Shown here one piece after another: positions 12,348 through 19,204 of a stretch of 64,000 nucleotides of DNA (its first letter is position 1; each line of letters opens with the position of its first letter). The translations under genes and the position numbers were made by a program. This DNA is from Acinetobacter colistiniresistens (GTDB lineage Bacteria > Pseudomonadota > Gammaproteobacteria > Pseudomonadales > Moraxellaceae). The stretch is from the NCBI RefSeq assembly GCF_024582815.1, contig NZ_CP102099.1:806001-870000 (forward strand). The letters are read 5' to 3'. The notes under the pieces are model-generated. The model saw nothing but the letters and a program-made list of their open reading frames with translations, searched no databases and was not told where the DNA came from.

Positions 12348-12370
12348 ACGTATTTCGCATAAGGCGTATT

Positions 12371-12499
12371 ATGTTAATTTTAGAAAAATTAAATTTAATA
12401 TTCCAAAGTGATGTTCTCTCATACATATCCTCATCTAAAGATATTATGGCTAAAATACGTTTACCTCTACCATTCACCAGATTTCAAGATCCAGATTAA
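12371..12499 (+). CDS. Small hypothetical ORF upstream of the nuclease gene
   Basis: 42 codons from the ATG at 12371, preceded by AAGG with 6-nt spacing, ending TAA at 12499. The tail MAKIRLPLPFTRFQDPD is rich in Pro/Arg; no family is recognised. It lies between the psd terminator and the restriction-like pair, in the same AT-rich DNA and on the same strand. It could be a small accessory gene of that pair or the remnant of a longer gene. Confidence 0.3.
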   Translation: MLILEKLNLIFQSDVLSYISSSKDIMAKIRLPLPFTRFQDPD

Positions 12500-12575
12500 C
12501 TACTATTCTGAAAACCTTTAAGAATATGTTATTAATTTAGATAGGTGTTTGAATTTATTAATAATAAGGATGATT

Positions 12576-13394
12576 ATGTCAAAAGATAGTACAGTTTTCG
12601 ATGTTTTTGAACAATGTGTTTTAGCTATTCAAAATGGTGAGTTGATTGAAGCAATTTCTTCAAAAGATAAAGAATTTCATTTCCAAAACTGGTTTCAAAA
12701 ACGCCTTGAAAACTTAGGTATCTACTTTGAAGGATCTGGAAGAAATACTTATCCTGATTTCTGTTTAGTGAATAAAGCTGAAGGTTTTGAAATTAAAGGA
12801 CTTGCCTGGCCAGGTCGTGAACGTGACTACGACTCAAATAGTCAAGTGCCTACAGGTTTCCATAATGGCCGTACTATATTTTATGTATTTGGCCGTTATC
12901 CTGCAGACCTTTCAGATTATTCTGTCGGTGATAGTAATCAAAAACAGTATCCAGTTGTTGATTTAGTCATATGTCATGGTGACTTCTTAAATGCAGATCA
13001 TAATTACGTCCACAAAAATAAAAATGTTAAAGGATTCGGTACTTATGGCGACATTATGATTCGTGATCGGAAAATGTATGTTGCTCCGACACCTTTTGCT
13101 TTAACAGAAGGTACTACCGGATTAATAACTTTAATTTTACCAGAAGACTTTGGAACAGATATTCGATACCAAGAGGTCGGACAACTTACTAGAGTTGAAG
13201 CAAATTCCTTAGTGGTAGGCTATAACTTCGATTTGCGTACAAATGACTTAGTGGCAGAAAGATGTGTGAATCCTAAAGGAAAAACTGAACACAAATTTAT
13301 TGCATATCGCTTATATAGCCAAACTGATAAACCAGTTCTTATGGCAGATAAATCATCTTTAGTAAAAGATGATAAGAAGTTGCTTAGTAAATGA
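12576..13394 (+). CDS. PD-(D/E)XK-type restriction endonuclease (putative)
   Basis: 272 residues from the ATG at 12576, which has AAGGA at 12566-12570. A PD-(D/E)XK core is visible: YPDF with Asp61, then FEIKG with Glu72 and Lys74. It is followed by a long strand-rich region that I cannot assign to a named restriction family. The gene overlaps the following methyltransferase by ATGA, so the two are surely co-translated. That pairing is what suggests a restriction enzyme. Codons are AT-rich compared with psd upstream, consistent with acquisition. Cleavage specificity cannot be read from the sequence. Confidence 0.7.
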   Translation: MSKDSTVFDVFEQCVLAIQNGELIEAISSKDKEFHFQNWFQKRLENLGIYFEGSGRNTYPDFCLVNKAEGFEIKGLAWPGRERDYDSNSQVPTGFHNGRTIFYVFGRYPADLSDYSVGDSNQKQYPVVDLVICHGDFLNADHNYVHKNKNVKGFGTYGDIMIRDRKMYVAPTPFALTEGTTGLITLILPEDFGTDIRYQEVGQLTRVEANSLVVGYNFDLRTNDLVAERCVNPKGKTEHKFIAYRLYSQTDKPVLMADKSSLVKDDKKLLSK

Positions 13395-15493
13395 TAGATG
13401 TTGCAAAAACAATGCAGGATACAGAAACAACAGCTCTAGAAGGTCAATTTCCTCTAGTTGAAATTAGTCAGATTGCTGAACAAGAGAGTTGGCGTAAAGA
13501 AATTAATCGCCCGATTTACCATATTCATAAATGGTGGGCTACTCGCTTAGGTTCAGTCTTTCGTGCTATCACAATAGGTGCTTTAACTCCTCCAGGAACT
13601 AATATTTGGGAAGAGTTTTATAAGACTCATAATTTAAAGGATAAAGTGGTTTTAGATCCTTTTATGGGTAGTGGAACTTCTCTTGGAGAGGCATTAAAGC
13701 TTGGTGCAAAGGCTATTGGTAATGATATTAACCCCATCAGCACTTTTTTAGTTCGTCAAGCGTTCACACCAGCTGCTGAAGCAGATTTACATGCTGCATT
13801 TGAATACTTAGAGCAAACAGTAGCTCCTAAAATTCGACACTATTATCAAACTCGAGATCCATTAACTGGTGAAAAAATCCCTGTTCTATATTACTTTTGG
13901 GTTAAAACAGTAACGACTCCTGATAATGAAGTAATTCCGCTATTTTCACGTTATGTTTTTTCGCAAGATGCTTATCCGAAAAAAAAACCAAAAGCTCAAA
14001 TTGTCTGCCCTAGTTGCTGGGAAGTACTAGAAGATAGATATGACTCGACTGAATTATGTTGTAAAAGTTGTGCGTATATTTTCAACCCACAAAAAGGTCC
14101 TGCTAGTGGTCAGAACATAACGGCAAAGGATGGAACAAAATATAAAGTTAAAGATTTAATACCTAAGAATTCTCCTCCAAAGCAACGTATGTATGCATTA
14201 ATGGCTTTGCGTAAGGACGGTTCAAAAATCTATTTAAAAGCTACTCCAGAAGACTTTGATTTATATGATGAAGCTGAAAAAAGACTAAATATAGAAAGCC
14301 TTCCACTACCTCAAACAGAGGTTCGTCCTGGTCATAATACAGACCAAGCACGAGGTTATAACTATATTAAATGGCGTGATTTTTTTAACTCTCGTCAACT
14401 GCTTTGCTTGGGATTACTCTTACAGGAAATCTTAAATATAAAAGATCAAATAATTCAGGAGCAGATCCTTTGTCTATTCTCCAGTACATTGGAATTCAAC
14501 AACCTTTTCTGTAGTTTTAAAGGTGAGGGAACTGGTGCTGTCCGCCATATGTTTTCAAACCATATATTAAAGCCTGAGCGCACCCCACTAGAGAATTCCA
14601 TTTGGGGAACTAATCGAAGCAGTGGGACATTCAGTACTTTATTCGAATCTCGATTATTACGAGCTAAACGTTACTTAGATACTCCCTTTGACATAGAGTT
14701 TAAATATGACATGTTTGGTGAGCGGATAGGCTCTAATAAAGTTATCGTAAGTAATCCAATTACAGCTCAGCGTGTAGAAAACTGGGAAGAATTAAAGCGT
14801 CAAGAACATGGAGTACTAATTCTGAACGGAGATAGTTCAAAACTGCCATTACCAAAAAAAACTGTAGATGCAGTTATTACTGATCCACCATATTTTGACT
14901 TTGTACATTATTCTGAACTGAGTGATTTCTTCTTTGCCTGGTTGTCTCCCGTTTTACGTGATCGTTATGACTGGATGTCATCTATAGATTCATCTCATCC
15001 AGGAGAAGTTCAGCACAATGACCCAAGGATATTTTCAAATCAATTATCTTCGGTATTTAGTGAAGCTTGTCGTGTTCTAAAAGATGAAGGAATCCTTGCA
15101 TTTAGTTTTCATCATTCACGTGCTGAAGGATGGGCCGCAATCTATGAAGCTATAAATAAAGCTGGTTTAGCTATTGTTACAGCACATGCAGTTCATGCTG
15201 AGCAACGTTCTGCTAGCCCTAAAACTTCAGCTAAAGAGCCTATCAGTATTGATGCAATTCTTGTTTGTCGTAAAAAAAGATTTGCTACAAATAACTTTGT
15301 TACTGTGCCAGAACTAAACACTATTATCGAAAAAACTTCAGCTCAACTCCAAAATGGGGGAATGAAAATTTCAAATAATGACAAATTTGTTATCAGTGCT
15401 GCTCAAACCTTAATTTCCTATGCTACTCATGACTTAAGCTATGATGAAATTAAAAAGCATTTAGAAGATGTAAGAATGCTATTTAATAGTTAA
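13391..15493 (+). CDS. Zinc-ribbon adenine-type DNA methyltransferase (DUF1156/COG1743-like)
   Basis: 700 residues. The N-terminal segment FPLVEISQIAEQESWRKE and IHKWWATRLGSVFRA (about 20-60) resembles DUF1156-type methylases. AdoMet motif I is LDPFMGSGTS (88-97) and catalytic motif IV is DPPY (498-501). The I-before-IV order with about 400 residues between suggests an alpha-type N6-adenine enzyme with its recognition domain between the motifs. A zinc ribbon with C206-x2-C209 and C224-x2-C227 sits in that insert. It overlaps the nuclease gene by 4 nt, forming a two-gene restriction-modification-like unit. No DUF499/DUF3780 partners are nearby. Confidence 0.8.
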   Translation: MIDVAKTMQDTETTALEGQFPLVEISQIAEQESWRKEINRPIYHIHKWWATRLGSVFRAITIGALTPPGTNIWEEFYKTHNLKDKVVLDPFMGSGTSLGEALKLGAKAIGNDINPISTFLVRQAFTPAAEADLHAAFEYLEQTVAPKIRHYYQTRDPLTGEKIPVLYYFWVKTVTTPDNEVIPLFSRYVFSQDAYPKKKPKAQIVCPSCWEVLEDRYDSTELCCKSCAYIFNPQKGPASGQNITAKDGTKYKVKDLIPKNSPPKQRMYALMALRKDGSKIYLKATPEDFDLYDEAEKRLNIESLPLPQTEVRPGHNTDQARGYNYIKWRDFFNSRQLLCLGLLLQEILNIKDQIIQEQILCLFSSTLEFNNLFCSFKGEGTGAVRHMFSNHILKPERTPLENSIWGTNRSSGTFSTLFESRLLRAKRYLDTPFDIEFKYDMFGERIGSNKVIVSNPITAQRVENWEELKRQEHGVLILNGDSSKLPLPKKTVDAVITDPPYFDFVHYSELSDFFFAWLSPVLRDRYDWMSSIDSSHPGEVQHNDPRIFSNQLSSVFSEACRVLKDEGILAFSFHHSRAEGWAAIYEAINKAGLAIVTAHAVHAEQRSASPKTSAKEPISIDAILVCRKKRFATNNFVTVPELNTIIEKTSAQLQNGGMKISNNDKFVISAAQTLISYATHDLSYDEIKKHLEDVRMLFNS

Positions 15494-15540
15494 GTAATCA
15501 TTTTATATAGGGAAAATGTATTTATTATTTTCCCTATATA

Positions 15541-16514
15541 ACCCGAATCGCGGATAAGAAATTGACTTGAAAAATAAGAGGACTAGAGCCATCAGTTGAG
15601 TTACCACACCAAACTCACAACTCTAGTCCTGATGTTCAATAGTACCGAATTATTCTGCGTAATTGATGATTTTTTTCTTAAATTTGAATCAACTTATTGG
15701 GAGTTTCTCAAACAAAACTGTGGTTCCTTAAGAATCAGAACTGCTCAACTCAAAATTTCAGAAATCTGCTTTATTGCCATTTGGTACAAATGCTCTCATT
15801 TCAATAATTTCAAAGCCTTTTTCACCTGGTTAAAAGAAGATAAAAGCCATTTATTTAAGTACTTGCCTTGCTATCAAAGGATGATTCATCTGATCAATAT
15901 GCACCAATTGGCCCTACACGCTTTACATGTGGCGCTGATGAAAGACCAAACTACACAATATTTATGGATTGATTCAACAACTCTGCCAGTTTGTAAAAAT
16001 CAACGGATTCAGCGTCATAAATCATTAGTCCAAATTGCATCACGTGGTAGAAGCTCAATGGGCTGGTTTTATGGCTGTAAATTACATATTGCGATGAATC
16101 AATTTGGTGAAATTGCCTGTTCTGCTTTATCGAATGGACATGTTGCTGACATAAAAATGGTTGAGCAATTGGTTGCTGGTATAGAAGCAAAACTTTACGG
16201 GGATCGAGGTTACATCAGCCAAGAATTAAAAATCAGATTGAAAGATCAAGGTATTGATTTAATTACTTATCATCGAAAGAATATGCAGGCTATTCAACTC
16301 TGTGCATCAGATGAATATCACCTAAGACAACGCAATAAGATAGAAACATTATTCAGTTTATTGAAGGGGCAATACAATTTAGTGACGAGTAAAGCACGTA
16401 GTATTCATGGATTTCTTGGAGGAATTTATGCCTCGCTATGCGCATATCAATTAACCCATCAAAATAAGCCAACAATTCAAATTAAGGAATCATCGGCTTA
16501 AGCAGGATCCGGGT
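15541..16514 (+). mobile_element. IS982-family insertion sequence
   Basis: Ends are ACCCGAATCGCGGATAAG at the left and, read inward, ACCCGGATCCTGCTTAAG at the right: imperfect terminal inverted repeats. A TATATA repeat flanks both ends (15535-15540 and 16515-16520) and is the likely target duplication. It carries one intact transposase gene. It inserted just after the methyltransferase stop, at the edge of the accessory island. Confidence 0.88.
15632..16501 (+). CDS. IS982-family transposase
   Basis: 289 residues from the ATG at 15632 (MFNSTELFCVIDDFF). An upstream in-frame TTG at 15596 is less likely. DDE-type features are visible: LWIDSTTLPV, a YGDRGYIS block with the second Asp, and RNKIETLFSLLKGQYN with the Glu. 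The reading frame is intact, so the element may still be mobile. Confidence 0.9.
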   Translation: MFNSTELFCVIDDFFLKFESTYWEFLKQNCGSLRIRTAQLKISEICFIAIWYKCSHFNNFKAFFTWLKEDKSHLFKYLPCYQRMIHLINMHQLALHALHVALMKDQTTQYLWIDSTTLPVCKNQRIQRHKSLVQIASRGRSSMGWFYGCKLHIAMNQFGEIACSALSNGHVADIKMVEQLVAGIEAKLYGDRGYISQELKIRLKDQGIDLITYHRKNMQAIQLCASDEYHLRQRNKIETLFSLLKGQYNLVTSKARSIHGFLGGIYASLCAYQLTHQNKPTIQIKESSA

Positions 16515-16688
16515 TATATAAACTATTTAACATAATGAGCGTTATGAGAAACTCGCTTAAAAAATATAAATTAAATCAATAGTTTATTTTTTCAAACATA
16601 CTAAAAAAAACAGCAAAGATCCGAATTAGATACAAGCAGGCCCTTTTTTGAGCAGTTTTGATATATTTTGCCAAGCTCTAACCTTATC

Positions 16689-16706
16689 TGTACGTTTTTG
16701 CTTACA
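16689..16706 (+). promoter_or_regulatory. GacA-box-like upstream element of sRNA 1
   Basis: TGTACG-N6-CTTACA, 18 bp, differs from the Pseudomonas GacA box (TGTAAG-N6-CTTACA) at one position of the left half. It is centred about 64 bp before the predicted start of sRNA 1. An equivalent site with the same half-sites and a different N6 lies before sRNA 2. Confidence 0.65.
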
Positions 16707-16727
16707 GCAATTCAGGGCAATGTCCCA

Positions 16728-16756
16728 TTTTCAACCTAAGCTGAATTGCCTAAGAT
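16728..16756 (+). promoter_or_regulatory. Promoter of sRNA 1
   Basis: TTTTCA (16728-16733), 17-bp spacer, TAAGAT (16751-16756). The same arrangement is kept at sRNA 2 (TTTTCA-17-TAATAT). The poor -35 fits an activator-dependent promoter. Confidence 0.6.
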
Positions 16757-16762
16757 CAACTC

Positions 16763-16890
16763 ATCAGGAACAGGAAGTTCCAAAACATAAAACAAGAATG
16801 ATAAGTTTGCGCATCAGGATGTGAGATATGACAGGAGTTGTATCTAGTGAAAGGAATACGAAAAAGCCCGACAGGATGTCGGGCTTTTTT
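16763..16890 (+). ncRNA. Candidate CsrB/RsmZ-like regulatory RNA, copy 1
   Basis: About 128 nt from a predicted start near 16763 to the T-run of a strong terminator (stem AGCCCGAC/GTCGGGCT, loop AGGAT). Six GGA motifs occur at 16767, 16773, 16817, 16834, 16853 and 16874, several in the form CAGGA(A/T)G. The hairpin GGAAC-AGGAA-GTTCC (16767-16781) puts one GGA in its loop, and the terminator loop carries another. CsrA/RsmA binds such GGA loops. The sequence is repeated with high identity at 18183-18311, where all six GGAs persist. A short frame from 16828 (MTGVVSSERN...) is open but diverges between copies at the terminator, so I treat it as non-coding. Confidence 0.72.
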
Positions 16891-16905
16891 CATTTGAGCT
16901 AAAAC

Positions 16906-17823
16906 TCAGTAAGTTTTTAAGTTCATCTGCTTGGAACTGTAATAGGCATGAATCGCGTCTGCACAGCTATTAATGATCGGGTCTTCATCTTTTTTCCAGA
17001 TGAGTTTTACTTCGCTAAGTGTGTTTTTATCTTGAAGGGGAATCAGTCTGACATCGCTCGGCAAAATTACTTTAAATTCTTCAGGCACAATACAAATGCC
17101 AAAGCCATTGGCGACCAGTTCCAATTGAGACCTTTTTCTTGAATAAATTCGGGTTCTTTTTGGACTAAAACCATTCACCAAACATAAATTGGCTGCCAAA
17201 TAACTTAAACCACCACGTGCTTTATGCGGAACAGAGACAAAATTTAAGGACGCCAACTCACGGATCGAGATACTTTCTTTTTCACTTAAAAATGGATCTG
17301 AAATATGGGCAGCGACATATAAAGGTGCGGTATATAAACTGATGGTATTGACGTCATTTAAATTGTGATAAATCGGCGGTCGAATAAAGCCCAGATCTAT
17401 ACTGCCATTCAATAAATATTCGAGCTGTAATTCAGAGGATAGGGTATTCATTTCGATATCAATGTTATGACGATCACAAAGCTGTTCAAAAATTTCCAGC
17501 TTGCTTTGATCCAACACAATACTGCTGGAATGGGCAATTTTAATGATTCGATCTTCACCTCGACTGATACTTTGGGCGCTGACAATGGAACTTTTTAAAT
17601 GATCAATATTGCTTTTTAAACTTTTATACAGTGCTTCACCTGCAGGTGTGAGTCTAATTTTCTTTTCAGATCGATCAAAAATTTCAAAACCGATTTCTTC
17701 TTCTAAATTTTTAATTTGTCTGCTCAGGGCAGATTGAGCAATAAACAACTTCTCCGAGGCAGCAATAAAGCCCCCAGTTTCTACAATCGTGATTAGATAA
17801 TTAAATTGTTTGAAGGTCCACAT
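16906..17823 (-). CDS. LysR-family transcriptional regulator (first)
   Basis: 305 residues. The N-terminal winged helix-turn-helix (MWTFKQFNYLITIVETGGFI ... SALSRQIKNLEEEIGFEIF) is followed by a type-2 periplasmic-binding-like effector domain. The target is unknown. It is convergent with sRNA 1, whose terminator it shares, and divergent from a small membrane ORF at 17920, the nearest candidate for regulation. It is not an obvious recent duplicate of the second LysR at 18311. Confidence 0.9.
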   Translation of the reverse strand: MWTFKQFNYLITIVETGGFIAASEKLFIAQSALSRQIKNLEEEIGFEIFDRSEKKIRLTPAGEALYKSLKSNIDHLKSSIVSAQSISRGEDRIIKIAHSSSIVLDQSKLEIFEQLCDRHNIDIEMNTLSSELQLEYLLNGSIDLGFIRPPIYHNLNDVNTISLYTAPLYVAAHISDPFLSEKESISIRELASLNFVSVPHKARGGLSYLAANLCLVNGFSPKRTRIYSRKRSQLELVANGFGICIVPEEFKVILPSDVRLIPLQDKNTLSEVKLIWKKDEDPIINSCADAIHAYYSSKQMNLKTY

Positions 17824-17919
17824 ATCTCAAAATTAGATCAGTGCTTGTTTTTTCTATATTAGATGAGATGAGAGAAATCTTATACCTTTTTTATAGATCC
17901 TTGATTCAGGTCGCTGACG

Positions 17920-18045
17920 ATGACAATGAGAAATAAGATTTTGACCTTGATTGCTGCTGTAGTGATTTGTCTACTGGCACAAAGCTATGATCACTATATG
18001 GGCGTAATGAAGACAGAACAGACTATTGATTTATGGGGAGATTGA
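17920..18045 (+). CDS. Small single-pass membrane peptide ORF
   Basis: 41 codons from the ATG at 17920 (or 17926), encoding a basic N-terminus (MTMRNKIL) and one hydrophobic helix (about residues 7-20), then a short polar tail ending LWGD. The ribosome binding site is weak. It is divergent from the LysR gene and lies upstream of sRNA 2. No homologue is recognised; it may be a real small inner-membrane protein or chance. Confidence 0.35.
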   Translation: MTMRNKILTLIAAVVICLLAQSYDHYMGVMKTEQTIDLWGD

Positions 18046-18108
18046 TACATTCACGAGACTTATATCGCTATTCTGAGTTACTTTTTTAAATGATGAGCAG
18101 CTCAGTGA

Positions 18109-18126
18109 TGTACGCTTTTTCTTACA
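18109..18126 (+). promoter_or_regulatory. GacA-box-like upstream element of sRNA 2
   Basis: TGTACG-N6-CTTACA, identical in both half-sites to the element before sRNA 1, with a different N6 (CTTTTT against TTTTTG). It lies the same distance from the promoter: CTTACA ends 44 bp before the -10. Confidence 0.65.
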
Positions 18127-18147
18127 TCGATTAGGGGCAATGTCCCA

Positions 18148-18176
18148 TTTTCAGCCAAGGCAGAATTGCCTAATAT
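18148..18176 (+). promoter_or_regulatory. Promoter of sRNA 2
   Basis: TTTTCA (18148-18153), 17-bp spacer, TAATAT (18171-18176). Conserved with sRNA 1 in spacing and position. Confidence 0.6.
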
Positions 18177-18182
18177 GAACTC

Positions 18183-18311
18183 ATCAGGAACAGGACGTTC
18201 CAAAACATAAAACAAGAATGATAAGTTTGTGCATCAGGACGTGAGATATGACAGGAGTTGTATCTAGTGAAAGGAATACGAAAAAGCCCGACTTGGATGT
18301 CGGGCTTTTTT
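18183..18311 (+). ncRNA. Candidate CsrB/RsmZ-like regulatory RNA, copy 2
   Basis: Paralog of the RNA at 16763. GGA motifs lie at 18187, 18193, 18237, 18254, 18273 and 18295. The hairpin GGAAC-AGGAC-GTTCC keeps its stem while the loop changes A to C. The terminator keeps stem AGCCCGAC/GTCGGGCT, but its loop changes from AGGAT to TTGGAT, still retaining GGA. Substitutions thus avoid the GGA cores. The T-run ends at the stop codon of the convergent LysR gene. Confidence 0.72.
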
Positions 18312-19204
18312 TATGTGAGATTGATTTGTTTTTCCCACAGTTCAATCAAGCATTGCATGGATTTGCTCAAAGGTTTATATGCTGGCCAAATGGCATGAAT
18401 CGGCATATCTAGTCCATTGGTGGTATCGAGAAAGGCCAAGCGTACCAGACTCTGTTTGGCAAAATGTGCTTGTACTACGGAGAGGGGGAAATTGCCCCAA
18501 CCGAGCCCTTGTTCCACCATATCAATGGCTATAGATAAATTATCGCTATACCAGCATGAATCTGAGACCAGTACTCGACTATCAGGCAGTGGATAATGTT
18601 TACTGGCTACAATAATTTGTCTGAGTTCAGACAGCATGGTGAGTTCATTCTTATTCTGGGCTTTGAGCTGTTGTGCATCTTTGGGTGAAACCGCCGCGAC
18701 AAATTGTTCCATGCCCAATAAACGAAAGCGTTCATTATTATCGAGTTGCGATGAACTATAGGCAATATACAGATCAATCTCGTTATTGTGCAATCGTGTC
18801 TTGAGCTCCTGTTGCGGGGCACTGACCATTTCAATATTGAGTAAGGGATAGCGTTGAATTAACTGTTCAATTCCTGCCAATAGAAACTTTTGATTGACAT
18901 CCGCGGCAATCCCAATGCAGAGATTGGTTTCCAGACCCGTTGAAAGCTCGGTCAGATGCAGGTCAAGCTGACGCAACTTGGTCAGAATTAACCGGGCATG
19001 CGGTTCGATCGAGAGTGCAACTTCGGTGGGGGCAAGATGATTTTTACTGCGTTCAAATAATTTTAAATTCAACTCTGCTTCGAGATTGGCAATCGACATA
19101 CTGACGGCTGAAGGCACACGATTCAAGGCACGTGCCGCTGCGGAAAAATTACCTCGGTCAATAATCTCAAGAATCAATTCGAGTTGTTCACGACTGAGCT
19201 TCAT
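18311..19204 (-). CDS. LysR-family transcriptional regulator (AceR-like position)
   Basis: 297 residues with an N-terminal helix-turn-helix (REQLELILEIIDRGNFSAAARALNRVPSAVSMSIANLEAEL) and a LysR effector-binding domain. It is divergent from the PACE efflux gene at 19299, with 94 bp between. This is the same arrangement as AceR and aceI in A. baumannii, so it probably controls that pump. Its stop codon abuts the sRNA 2 terminator. Confidence 0.88.
   Translation of the reverse strand: MKLSREQLELILEIIDRGNFSAAARALNRVPSAVSMSIANLEAELNLKLFERSKNHLAPTEVALSIEPHARLILTKLRQLDLHLTELSTGLETNLCIGIAADVNQKFLLAGIEQLIQRYPLLNIEMVSAPQQELKTRLHNNEIDLYIAYSSSQLDNNERFRLLGMEQFVAAVSPKDAQQLKAQNKNELTMLSELRQIIVASKHYPLPDSRVLVSDSCWYSDNLSIAIDMVEQGLGWGNFPLSVVQAHFAKQSLVRLAFLDTTNGLDMPIHAIWPAYKPLSKSMQCLIELWEKQINLT

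Follow-up and report, generated by a model that had tools for sequence, protein, structure and literature searches.

A genus-wide family of predicted CsrA-sponge RNAs in Acinetobacter, with plasmid copies that read as Xer-bounded dif modules

A 64,000-nucleotide (nt) stretch of Acinetobacter colistiniresistens DNA (NZ_CP102099.1, positions 806,001 to 870,000; hereafter the window, whose own numbering is used throughout) holds two intergenic small RNA (sRNA) genes of 128-130 nt, each with six GGA motifs, a terminator and an upstream box of the GacA type. The locus raises the question of whether these RNAs act as decoys, or sponges, for CsrA, and whether the pair stands alone. As judged from sequence, the RNAs are very probably GacA-driven CsrA sponges, with plasmid copies that form Xer-bounded dif modules and a total dosage set by the resident plasmids. 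The elements of the two genes are listed below, the 5' and 3' ends of both RNAs being predictions.

16689..16706, forward strand: GacA-type box TGTACG-N6-CTTACA of copy 1, read from the letters, in the register common to 87 of 99 distinct upstream regions
16728..16733, forward strand: poor -35 element TTTTCA of copy 1, 17 bp before the -10 element, read from the letters
16751..16756, forward strand: -10 element TAAGAT of copy 1, 44 bp after the box, read from the letters, in a region conserved in the family
16763..16890, forward strand: RsmY-type sRNA gene, copy 1 (predicted ends)
16767..16781, forward strand: hairpin 1 of copy 1, loop GGA at 16773-16775 (fold and alignment)
16812..16823, forward strand: hairpin 2 of copy 1, loop GGA at 16817-16819 (fold and alignment)
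16824..16845, forward strand: hairpin 3 of copy 1, loop GGA at 16834-16836 (fold and alignment)
16861..16890, forward strand: terminator hairpin of copy 1, loop GGA at 16874-16876 (fold and alignment)
18109..18126, forward strand: GacA-type box TGTACG-N6-CTTACA of copy 2, read from the letters
18171..18176, forward strand: -10 element TAATAT of copy 2, 44 bp after the box, read from the letters
18183..18312, forward strand: RsmY-type sRNA gene, copy 2 (predicted ends), its final 2 nt overlapping the end of a convergent LysR open reading frame
18187..18201, forward strand: hairpin 1 of copy 2, loop GGA at 18193-18195 (centroid fold and alignment)
18232..18243, forward strand: hairpin 2 of copy 2, loop GGA at 18237-18239 (alignment; absent from the copy's own minimum-energy and centroid folds)
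18244..18265, forward strand: hairpin 3 of copy 2, loop GGA at 18254-18256 (fold and alignment)
18281..18312, forward strand: terminator hairpin of copy 2, loop GGA at 18295-18297 (letters and fold)

Re-reading of the letters bore out what the first-pass annotation had described at both loci. The box TGTACG-N6-CTTACA stands 44 bp before a -10 element in each, the copies are paralogous (96% identity), and all six GGAs per copy could be located (16767, 16773, 16817, 16834, 16853 and 16874 in copy 1; 18187, 18193, 18237, 18254, 18273 and 18295 in copy 2). The centre of the box lies about 65 bp before the predicted start at 16763. The pattern TGTNNG-N6-CTTACA occurs twice in the window against 0.17 expected, and two occurrences were reached in one of 100 shuffles. 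Both RNAs fold more stably than shuffled sequences (z -4.3 for copy 1, -3.2 for copy 2). Copy 1 folded alone forms all four hairpins, with an A-rich, single-stranded linker between hairpins 1 and 2. In the minimum-energy fold of copy 2 the hairpin 1 and hairpin 2 regions pair together, so that both hairpins are lost, and the centroid fold keeps hairpins 1, 3 and the terminator without hairpin 2. Each copy has a stop codon in all three sense frames and one open antisense frame.

The comparison with Rfam covariance models that had been proposed for the pair places RsmY (RF00195) first for both copies. When relatives are ranked by E-value on 1.8 kb rather than by gathering score, copy 1 reaches 28.3 bits (E 1.7e-4) and copy 2 reaches 24.9 bits (E 0.0015), and the model aligns with both end to end. 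Yet these scores are about half of the gathering score (57), which leaves both window copies outside RF00195 as Rfam defines it. The runner-up for copy 1 is an unrelated Brucella sRNA model (E 8.8e-4) that matches mainly on the terminator, and the same 1.8 kb gave 28 further, weaker matches, many of them on terminators. Among 20 other family loci, RsmY matches eight at E<=0.05, though not in every case as the best-placed model.

The copies were also compared with one another. Eighteen of them (this genome and PLSDB records) were aligned; their consensus has 25 base pairs, 11 of which show double compensatory change, and a covariance model, R1, was built. Scored on this unfitted 18-copy alignment, a four-hairpin structure drawn up separately has 92.8% of cells paired against 85.0 after shuffling, and 15 pairs with double changes against 7.2. 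Searching 100 sources with R1 at E<=1e-6 returned 104 copies, 100 of them distinct; most sources were top-scoring genus matches, with diverged paralogues under-represented. In the 100-copy alignment, which is fitted to the model and with which the unfitted alignment agrees, 95.1% of pair cells are paired (88.3% shuffled, 33-47% slid) and double compensatory change is seen at 20 of the 28 base pairs (10.3 shuffled). Pairwise RNA identity has a median of 0.73 and a minimum of 0.43.

The first-pass annotation had staked its reading on the GGA motifs persisting in other Acinetobacter copies, and those in the loops do persist. The GGAs of the four hairpin loops survive unaltered in 100, 99, 98 and 98 of the 100 distinct copies (mean column identity in this count, 0.82) and rank 1st, 8th, 9th and 15th in conservation among 136 triplets; only seven copies preserve a fifth GGA of the consensus, which lies between hairpin 3 and the terminator. 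Individual copies hold 3-7 GGAs (4-6 in 98 of the 100), where mononucleotide shuffles have a mean of 2.8 and a maximum of 8. In one Klebsiella grimontii copy (L015, 5555-5583) the terminator loop is inverted, reading ATCCTG for AGGATG, and the GGA is lost there.

These alignments identify the RNAs as a structured, conserved family with a conserved box, loops and terminator. It is scarcely credible that the copies amount to strong terminators alone, or to a repeat element that encodes no regulatory RNA, since promoter, box and upstream hairpins are conserved with covariation; what speaks for that idea is that no other helix is as fully paired as the terminator (99.6% of cells in the 100-copy alignment) and that one weak R1 match, L034, resembles a terminator only. 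A second alternative holds that the RNAs mainly base-pair with mRNAs, in the manner of Hfq-type sRNAs, and that the GGAs are incidental or structural. The A-rich linker left single-stranded in the copy 1 fold would suit such a role, and the available part of one source describes over a hundred sRNAs in A. baumannii, with Hfq central (PMC12802169). This is nonetheless very unlikely, because the loop GGAs are among the most conserved triplets whereas the linker is variable and in many copies has an 8-nt gap, because the stems vary by compensation around fixed loops, and because a GacA-type box stands in the promoter.

In Pseudomonas, a GacA-type palindrome with the half-site TGTAAG lies upstream of the rsm genes. 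Across the family modelled here, the strict box occurs at -67 (79 cases), -66 (5) or -69 (3) of the model start, which is 16756 and 18176 in the window, in 87 of 99 distinct upstream regions (one of the 100 copies had too little flank), and elsewhere in these regions it occurs at none of 12,078 positions. With all rows counted the box is present in 91 of 103; of the 12 rows without it, eleven differ from the pattern by a single base and one by three. Its fixed positions are 91% identical, against 56% for the rest of the 95 nt. The commonest half-site is TGTACG, and TGTAAG variants occupy the same position. A second conserved set lies between the box and the -10 element (A-46 88%, T-45 84%, G-40 97%, T-35 94%, C-32 92%, T-28 94%), its equivalent in the window (-46 to -28 of the model start) falling at about 16710-16728.

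The host genome encodes the proteins that such a system would need. One CsrA gene is present, together with a GacA candidate that combines a receiver domain with a LuxR-type domain (262.8-263.7 bits, below the NCBI cut-off of 280) and a GacS/BarA-like kinase (570.8 bits, below the NCBI cut-off of 890). Relative to the model start, the strict box sits at -67 or -69 in all six good family copies of this genome. TGTACG-N6-CKTACA has five sites genome-wide, four of them before family RNAs, and the reversed pattern, used as a control, occurs once per strand; the fifth site (C1:228473; near 1501 of L270) has no family RNA behind it. A close GacA relative was found in 148 of 149 Acinetobacter genomes. 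All three genomes in which R1 finds no match have the GacA relative, and in two of these its identity is the lowest of the sample (71 and 73%).

The box might instead be read by a LuxR-type regulator other than GacA, the RNAs still being CsrA sponges. The predominance of TGTACG over the TGTAAG of Pseudomonas, and a second, weaker match to the GacA model in the genome (a 218-amino-acid frame), lend this some weight, but it is unlikely given that the GacA candidate is far ahead (262.8 versus 75.5 bits), that TGTAAG variants are found at the same place, and that close GacA relatives occur in 148 of the 149 genus genomes. The view of the first-pass annotation, that the pair are RsmY/Z-type antagonists of CsrA under GacA, is thus supported at the level of sequence by the RsmY model, the loop GGAs and the encoded CsrA, GacA and GacS-like kinase.

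The family extends well beyond the window. R1 matches 141 of 149 Acinetobacter genomes at E<=1e-8, and no genome of another genus at E<=1e-6 in a family sample (n=119) or an order sample (n=194). Up to 16 copies per genome occur in the genus sample and 18 in the family sample, weak matches at E<=0.001 included. A box-spacer-hairpin pattern run over species genomes found at least 119 stretches; Acinetobacter titles account for 69 of the 80 listed, and the other 11 are taken as chance. Twelve chromosomal loci were compared, mostly picked because paired copies were visible in them; ten hold two strong same-strand copies within 1.5 kb, spaced about 1.4 kb apart in eight, as in the window, and 0.74 kb in two. 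By these searches the family is genus-wide and multicopy, and the window pair is part of it.

In this genome R1 has seven matches at E<=0.001 (24 at a looser limit), six of them good. Besides the window pair, one copy lies on a 10,411-bp plasmid-sized contig, C2 (135.8 bits), and others lie on the chromosome at 499.5, 678 and 747 kb (89, 76.5 and 74.2 bits), with a weak terminator-like match at 746 kb (36.9 bits). By eye, the contig with the plasmid copy also carries TetR-like and MFS-efflux-like genes (L006, 50-1944). Two diverged chromosomal copies (L008, 3517-3643; L032, 1501-1627) lie about 3 kb and 1.2 kb from 5S rRNA genes. Some 0.8 kb before the first of these, just past a gene end, is a match to the 3' half of the model (L008, about 2650-2762), which scores only 18.9 bits and is treated as a fragment, perhaps left over from an earlier tandem copy.

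Copies on plasmids were sought in PLSDB (72,556 records). The plasmid copy with its upstream region matched 369 records (348 Acinetobacter, 17 Klebsiella, 3 Raoultella and 1 Enterobacter), 94 of them over at least 80% of the query; a window copy as query likewise matched 369, 93 of them over 80%. A few of these records are chromosome-sized and filed as plasmids (e.g., H62). Fifteen of the records were fetched at first, and the flanks of family copies were scanned for pdif sites at up to 4 mismatches from what is taken to be the pdif consensus.

The flanks suggest that the RNA gene travels as a unit. In 17 of 19 plasmid-labelled copies the model start is preceded, at a distance of 320-336 bp and always in the same orientation, by a pdif-type site; this holds for seven of 12 unlabelled contigs with flank and for one of 11 chromosomal copies. 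In the remaining two plasmid copies (L020, L027) the site is 1818-1819 bp off with an ISNCY-type transposase gene in between, as expected of an insertion by IS1202-group elements, which insert beside XerC arms according to the portion of PMC10132070 available. Among the 17 plasmid copies (136 pairs), left homology ends between -10 and +38 bp from the site in 101 pairs, 30 pairs end nearer the RNA, and five run 12-28 bp past the site and none farther, with as much as 900 bp of extra flank supplied and high-scoring segment pairs left unchained. On the right, an opposed pdif site is the nearest one in nine of the 19 copies, and the rest have a site in the other orientation or none within the available flank. 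L045 and L047, in which the right-hand site falls 10-11 bp past the RNA, form units of about 490 bp with nothing else recognised inside; the units of L014 and L019 also carry a RelE/helix-turn-helix (HTH) gene pair, and that of L017 an HTH gene.

A junction in the K. grimontii plasmid pRHBSTW-00054_6 is consistent with Xer-mediated entry. The 55 nt shown are identical to Escherichia coli pYPE10-4k through an XerD-like arm, the spacer and two further bases, past which point the plasmid continues with an Acinetobacter-type XerC arm and the module. With 8 mismatches, the resident E. coli sequence is a poor fit to the dif consensus, and that it is a Xer site is an inference. On the sequence of their flanks, the plasmid copies appear to be dif modules, with left homology ending at pdif sites. 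A tree of the copies also counts in favour of this mobility: location changes 6 times (5-7) among its 27 plasmid and 32 chromosomal copies, against 19.9 when shuffled, with 45 copies lacking a location label. Carriage by phage was considered and rejected: each query met six records, all 'Acinetobacter phage MD-2021a' contigs (CAKLQF/CAKLQH), two of them 128 kb long with four places each, and these are probably mislabelled bacterial DNA.

Sites of the same kind occur in the window, beside copy 1.

12352..12379, forward strand: dif-like Xer site, 3 mismatches, at the far end of an island upstream of copy 1
16525..16552, reverse strand: dif-like Xer site, 4 mismatches to the presumed consensus, starting 164 bp before the box of copy 1

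No dif-like site at up to 4 mismatches arose in 30 Markov-simulated windows. These opposed sites bound an island (12352-16552) with copy 1 on one side and, on the other, a psd-like gene identified by eye. The island encodes an N6/N4 DNA methyltransferase, a DDE transposase and a protein that belongs to no Pfam family. Related genomes differ in the stretch from the psd-like gene to copy 1. A dif-like site also lies 149-165 bp before the copy 1 box in L276, L277, L278 and L286, and at up to 5 mismatches it was not found in the other eight of 12 related loci. The corresponding stretch of L276 contains dif sites and an RNA copy whose box is of the plasmid type, and this copy (L080) falls among plasmid copies on the tree; plasmid modules thus seem to reach the chromosomal spot at copy 1. 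Copy 1 itself was rejected as a dif module, given its single degenerate left site and no dif-like site on its right, and copy 2 has no dif-like site of its own. The remaining neighbours of the pair are two regulator genes.

16906..17823, reverse strand: LysR-type regulator gene between the copies, convergent with copy 1
18311..19204, reverse strand: LysR-type regulator gene convergent with copy 2

In the proposed mechanism, GacA would turn on an untranslated RNA of about 128 nt through the upstream box, and the GGA-bearing hairpin loops would bind CsrA dimers, titrating CsrA and lifting its repression of mRNAs by the logic of RsmY and CsrB. Modules bounded by XerC/XerD sites would move among plasmids and sometimes into chromosomes, adding sponge dosage under the same host switch, so that the total would depend on the plasmids present. 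Transcription, binding by GacA, titration of CsrA and any effect of a plasmid copy on its host are inferred in this scheme. A further step, towards which the evidence leans only slightly, is that of a Xer-mobilised RNA cassette, with host GacA firing decoys from multicopy plasmids and plasmid content resetting the host's post-transcriptional set point. Some plasmids of this kind are present at 5.8 to 11 copies per cell, according to the part of PMC13141974 available.

Several observations weigh against this account. At Rfam gathering thresholds the window returned no Csr/Rsm family, and indeed nothing at all, and no Csr/Rsm family appeared at gathering in 20 copy-holding loci, the window's included. 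Hairpin 2 is among the weaker helices, with 82.4% and 90.9% of cells paired in the comparative counts, and all such counts come from copies related by descent and are not independent. The E-values of R1 are rough: at E<=0.001, the model also matches 28 other-genus genomes among the 119 of the family sample (best 39.6 bits, 9.2e-6) and 23 among the 194 of the order sample (best 40.5 bits, 6.5e-6). That limit was abandoned for the genus count because of these matches, and the 146 of 149 Acinetobacter genomes positive at it include weak matches, five of them above 1e-8. The bootstrap of the tree had not settled. The use of the box by GacA and the preference of CsrA for GGA loops are known from Pseudomonas and Escherichia and carried over to Acinetobacter, and it is on that knowledge that CsrA titration is predicted from the conserved sequence.

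Expression data give a further point on the same side. A. baumannii ATCC 17978 has a full family copy on a 13.4-kb plasmid (L014), and in the available part of an RNA-seq study of this strain the one quantified plasmid sRNA region lies on pAB2 (PMC5538643), which speaks against strong expression of the 13.4-kb plasmid copy. Discarded paralogue reads could account for this silence, although that is a guess. Most of the 369 PLSDB matches, moreover, are partial, down to a 40-bp terminator.

These partial matches also bear on the idea that the plasmid copies are passengers, kept through the dif site without any effect on the host. Dif modules shuffle readily, as described in the accessible text of PMC13141974, and decayed copies exist: a K. 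pneumoniae plasmid retains a terminator remnant beside an IS5 transposase and a catalase gene (L025, 2001-2040), and in Klebsiella RHBSTW-00464 a family copy is split in two (L288, 292-410 and 5858-5973). The idea is rather unlikely, however, because the 27 plasmid-labelled copies keep their loop GGAs intact in 27, 26, 26 and 25 cases and the strict box in 22, the other five being one base off, as expected under functional selection. The GacA-driven CsrA sponge remains by far the best reading of the family.

If it is correct, the consequences reach beyond the paralogous pair first noticed, to which the genus-wide multicopy family, the plasmid copies and the association with dif sites are additions. 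CsrA is reported as essential on rich medium in A. baumannii in the part of PMC12802169 available. In the literature searched, RNA antagonists of CsrA in Acinetobacter are predictions, and the modelled family would supply the missing arm of the Gac/Csr system throughout the genus. Should plasmid copies titrate CsrA, RNA dosage by itself would let plasmid carriage alter the traits that CsrA controls, and the cargo moved by dif modules would extend from protein genes to regulators.

Among known systems, the RNAs resemble RsmY, RsmX and RsmZ of Pseudomonas in size, loop GGAs, intrinsic terminator and the upstream GacA-type palindrome known from that genus. They differ from RsmY (RF00195) in reaching half its gathering score and in having many copies per genome, a tandem pair and plasmid copies in dif modules. 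Within Acinetobacter, A. baylyi ADP1 has predicted CsrA/RsmA-regulating sRNAs of 119 and 139 nt (PMC5568370, Table 2, citing Kulkarni 2006), and a CsrB-like RNA is drawn into a scheme for this species (PMC12442408), as far as the available parts of both papers show. Compared by description, the ADP1 predictions share with the window pair the proposed function, the genus and a convergent neighbour for each; the genus-wide family and its mobility are absent from the accessible portion of PMC5568370. Amplification of a Gac-controlled sRNA gene by duplication has a parallel in rsmX-2 of Pseudomonas brassicacearum, unlike which, a single duplication with no mobile form described in the part of PMC7911923 available, the present genes also occur in mobile modules.

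The plasmid units resemble the dif modules of Acinetobacter plasmids in being bounded by 28-bp XerC/XerD sites, but the cargo of described modules consists of proteins in the available parts of PMC13141974, PMC6449649 and PMC10132070. The word 'RNA' is absent from the dif-module papers PMC13141974 and PMC12907356 and has one unrelated occurrence in PMC6449649. In the main texts that could be searched, CsrA-sponge RNAs were reported neither in dif modules nor on Acinetobacter plasmids. Sponge RNAs have therefore been predicted before in Acinetobacter, and their status as dif-module cargo is new as far as this partly available literature goes. An 'empty' module without open reading frames has been described as a D module, whereas the RNA modules are bounded by XerC arms and would be of C type by the present reading. 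Finally, the plasmid-borne CsrA-type protein RsmQ (PMC9928087, available in part) likewise lets a plasmid reach into the Gac/Rsm pathway of its host. RsmQ is a protein, whereas the plasmids considered here carry a decoy RNA of opposite sign, and if the sponge reading is true, a regulatory RNA gene travelling as a dif module would be the mirror image of plasmid-borne CsrA proteins.

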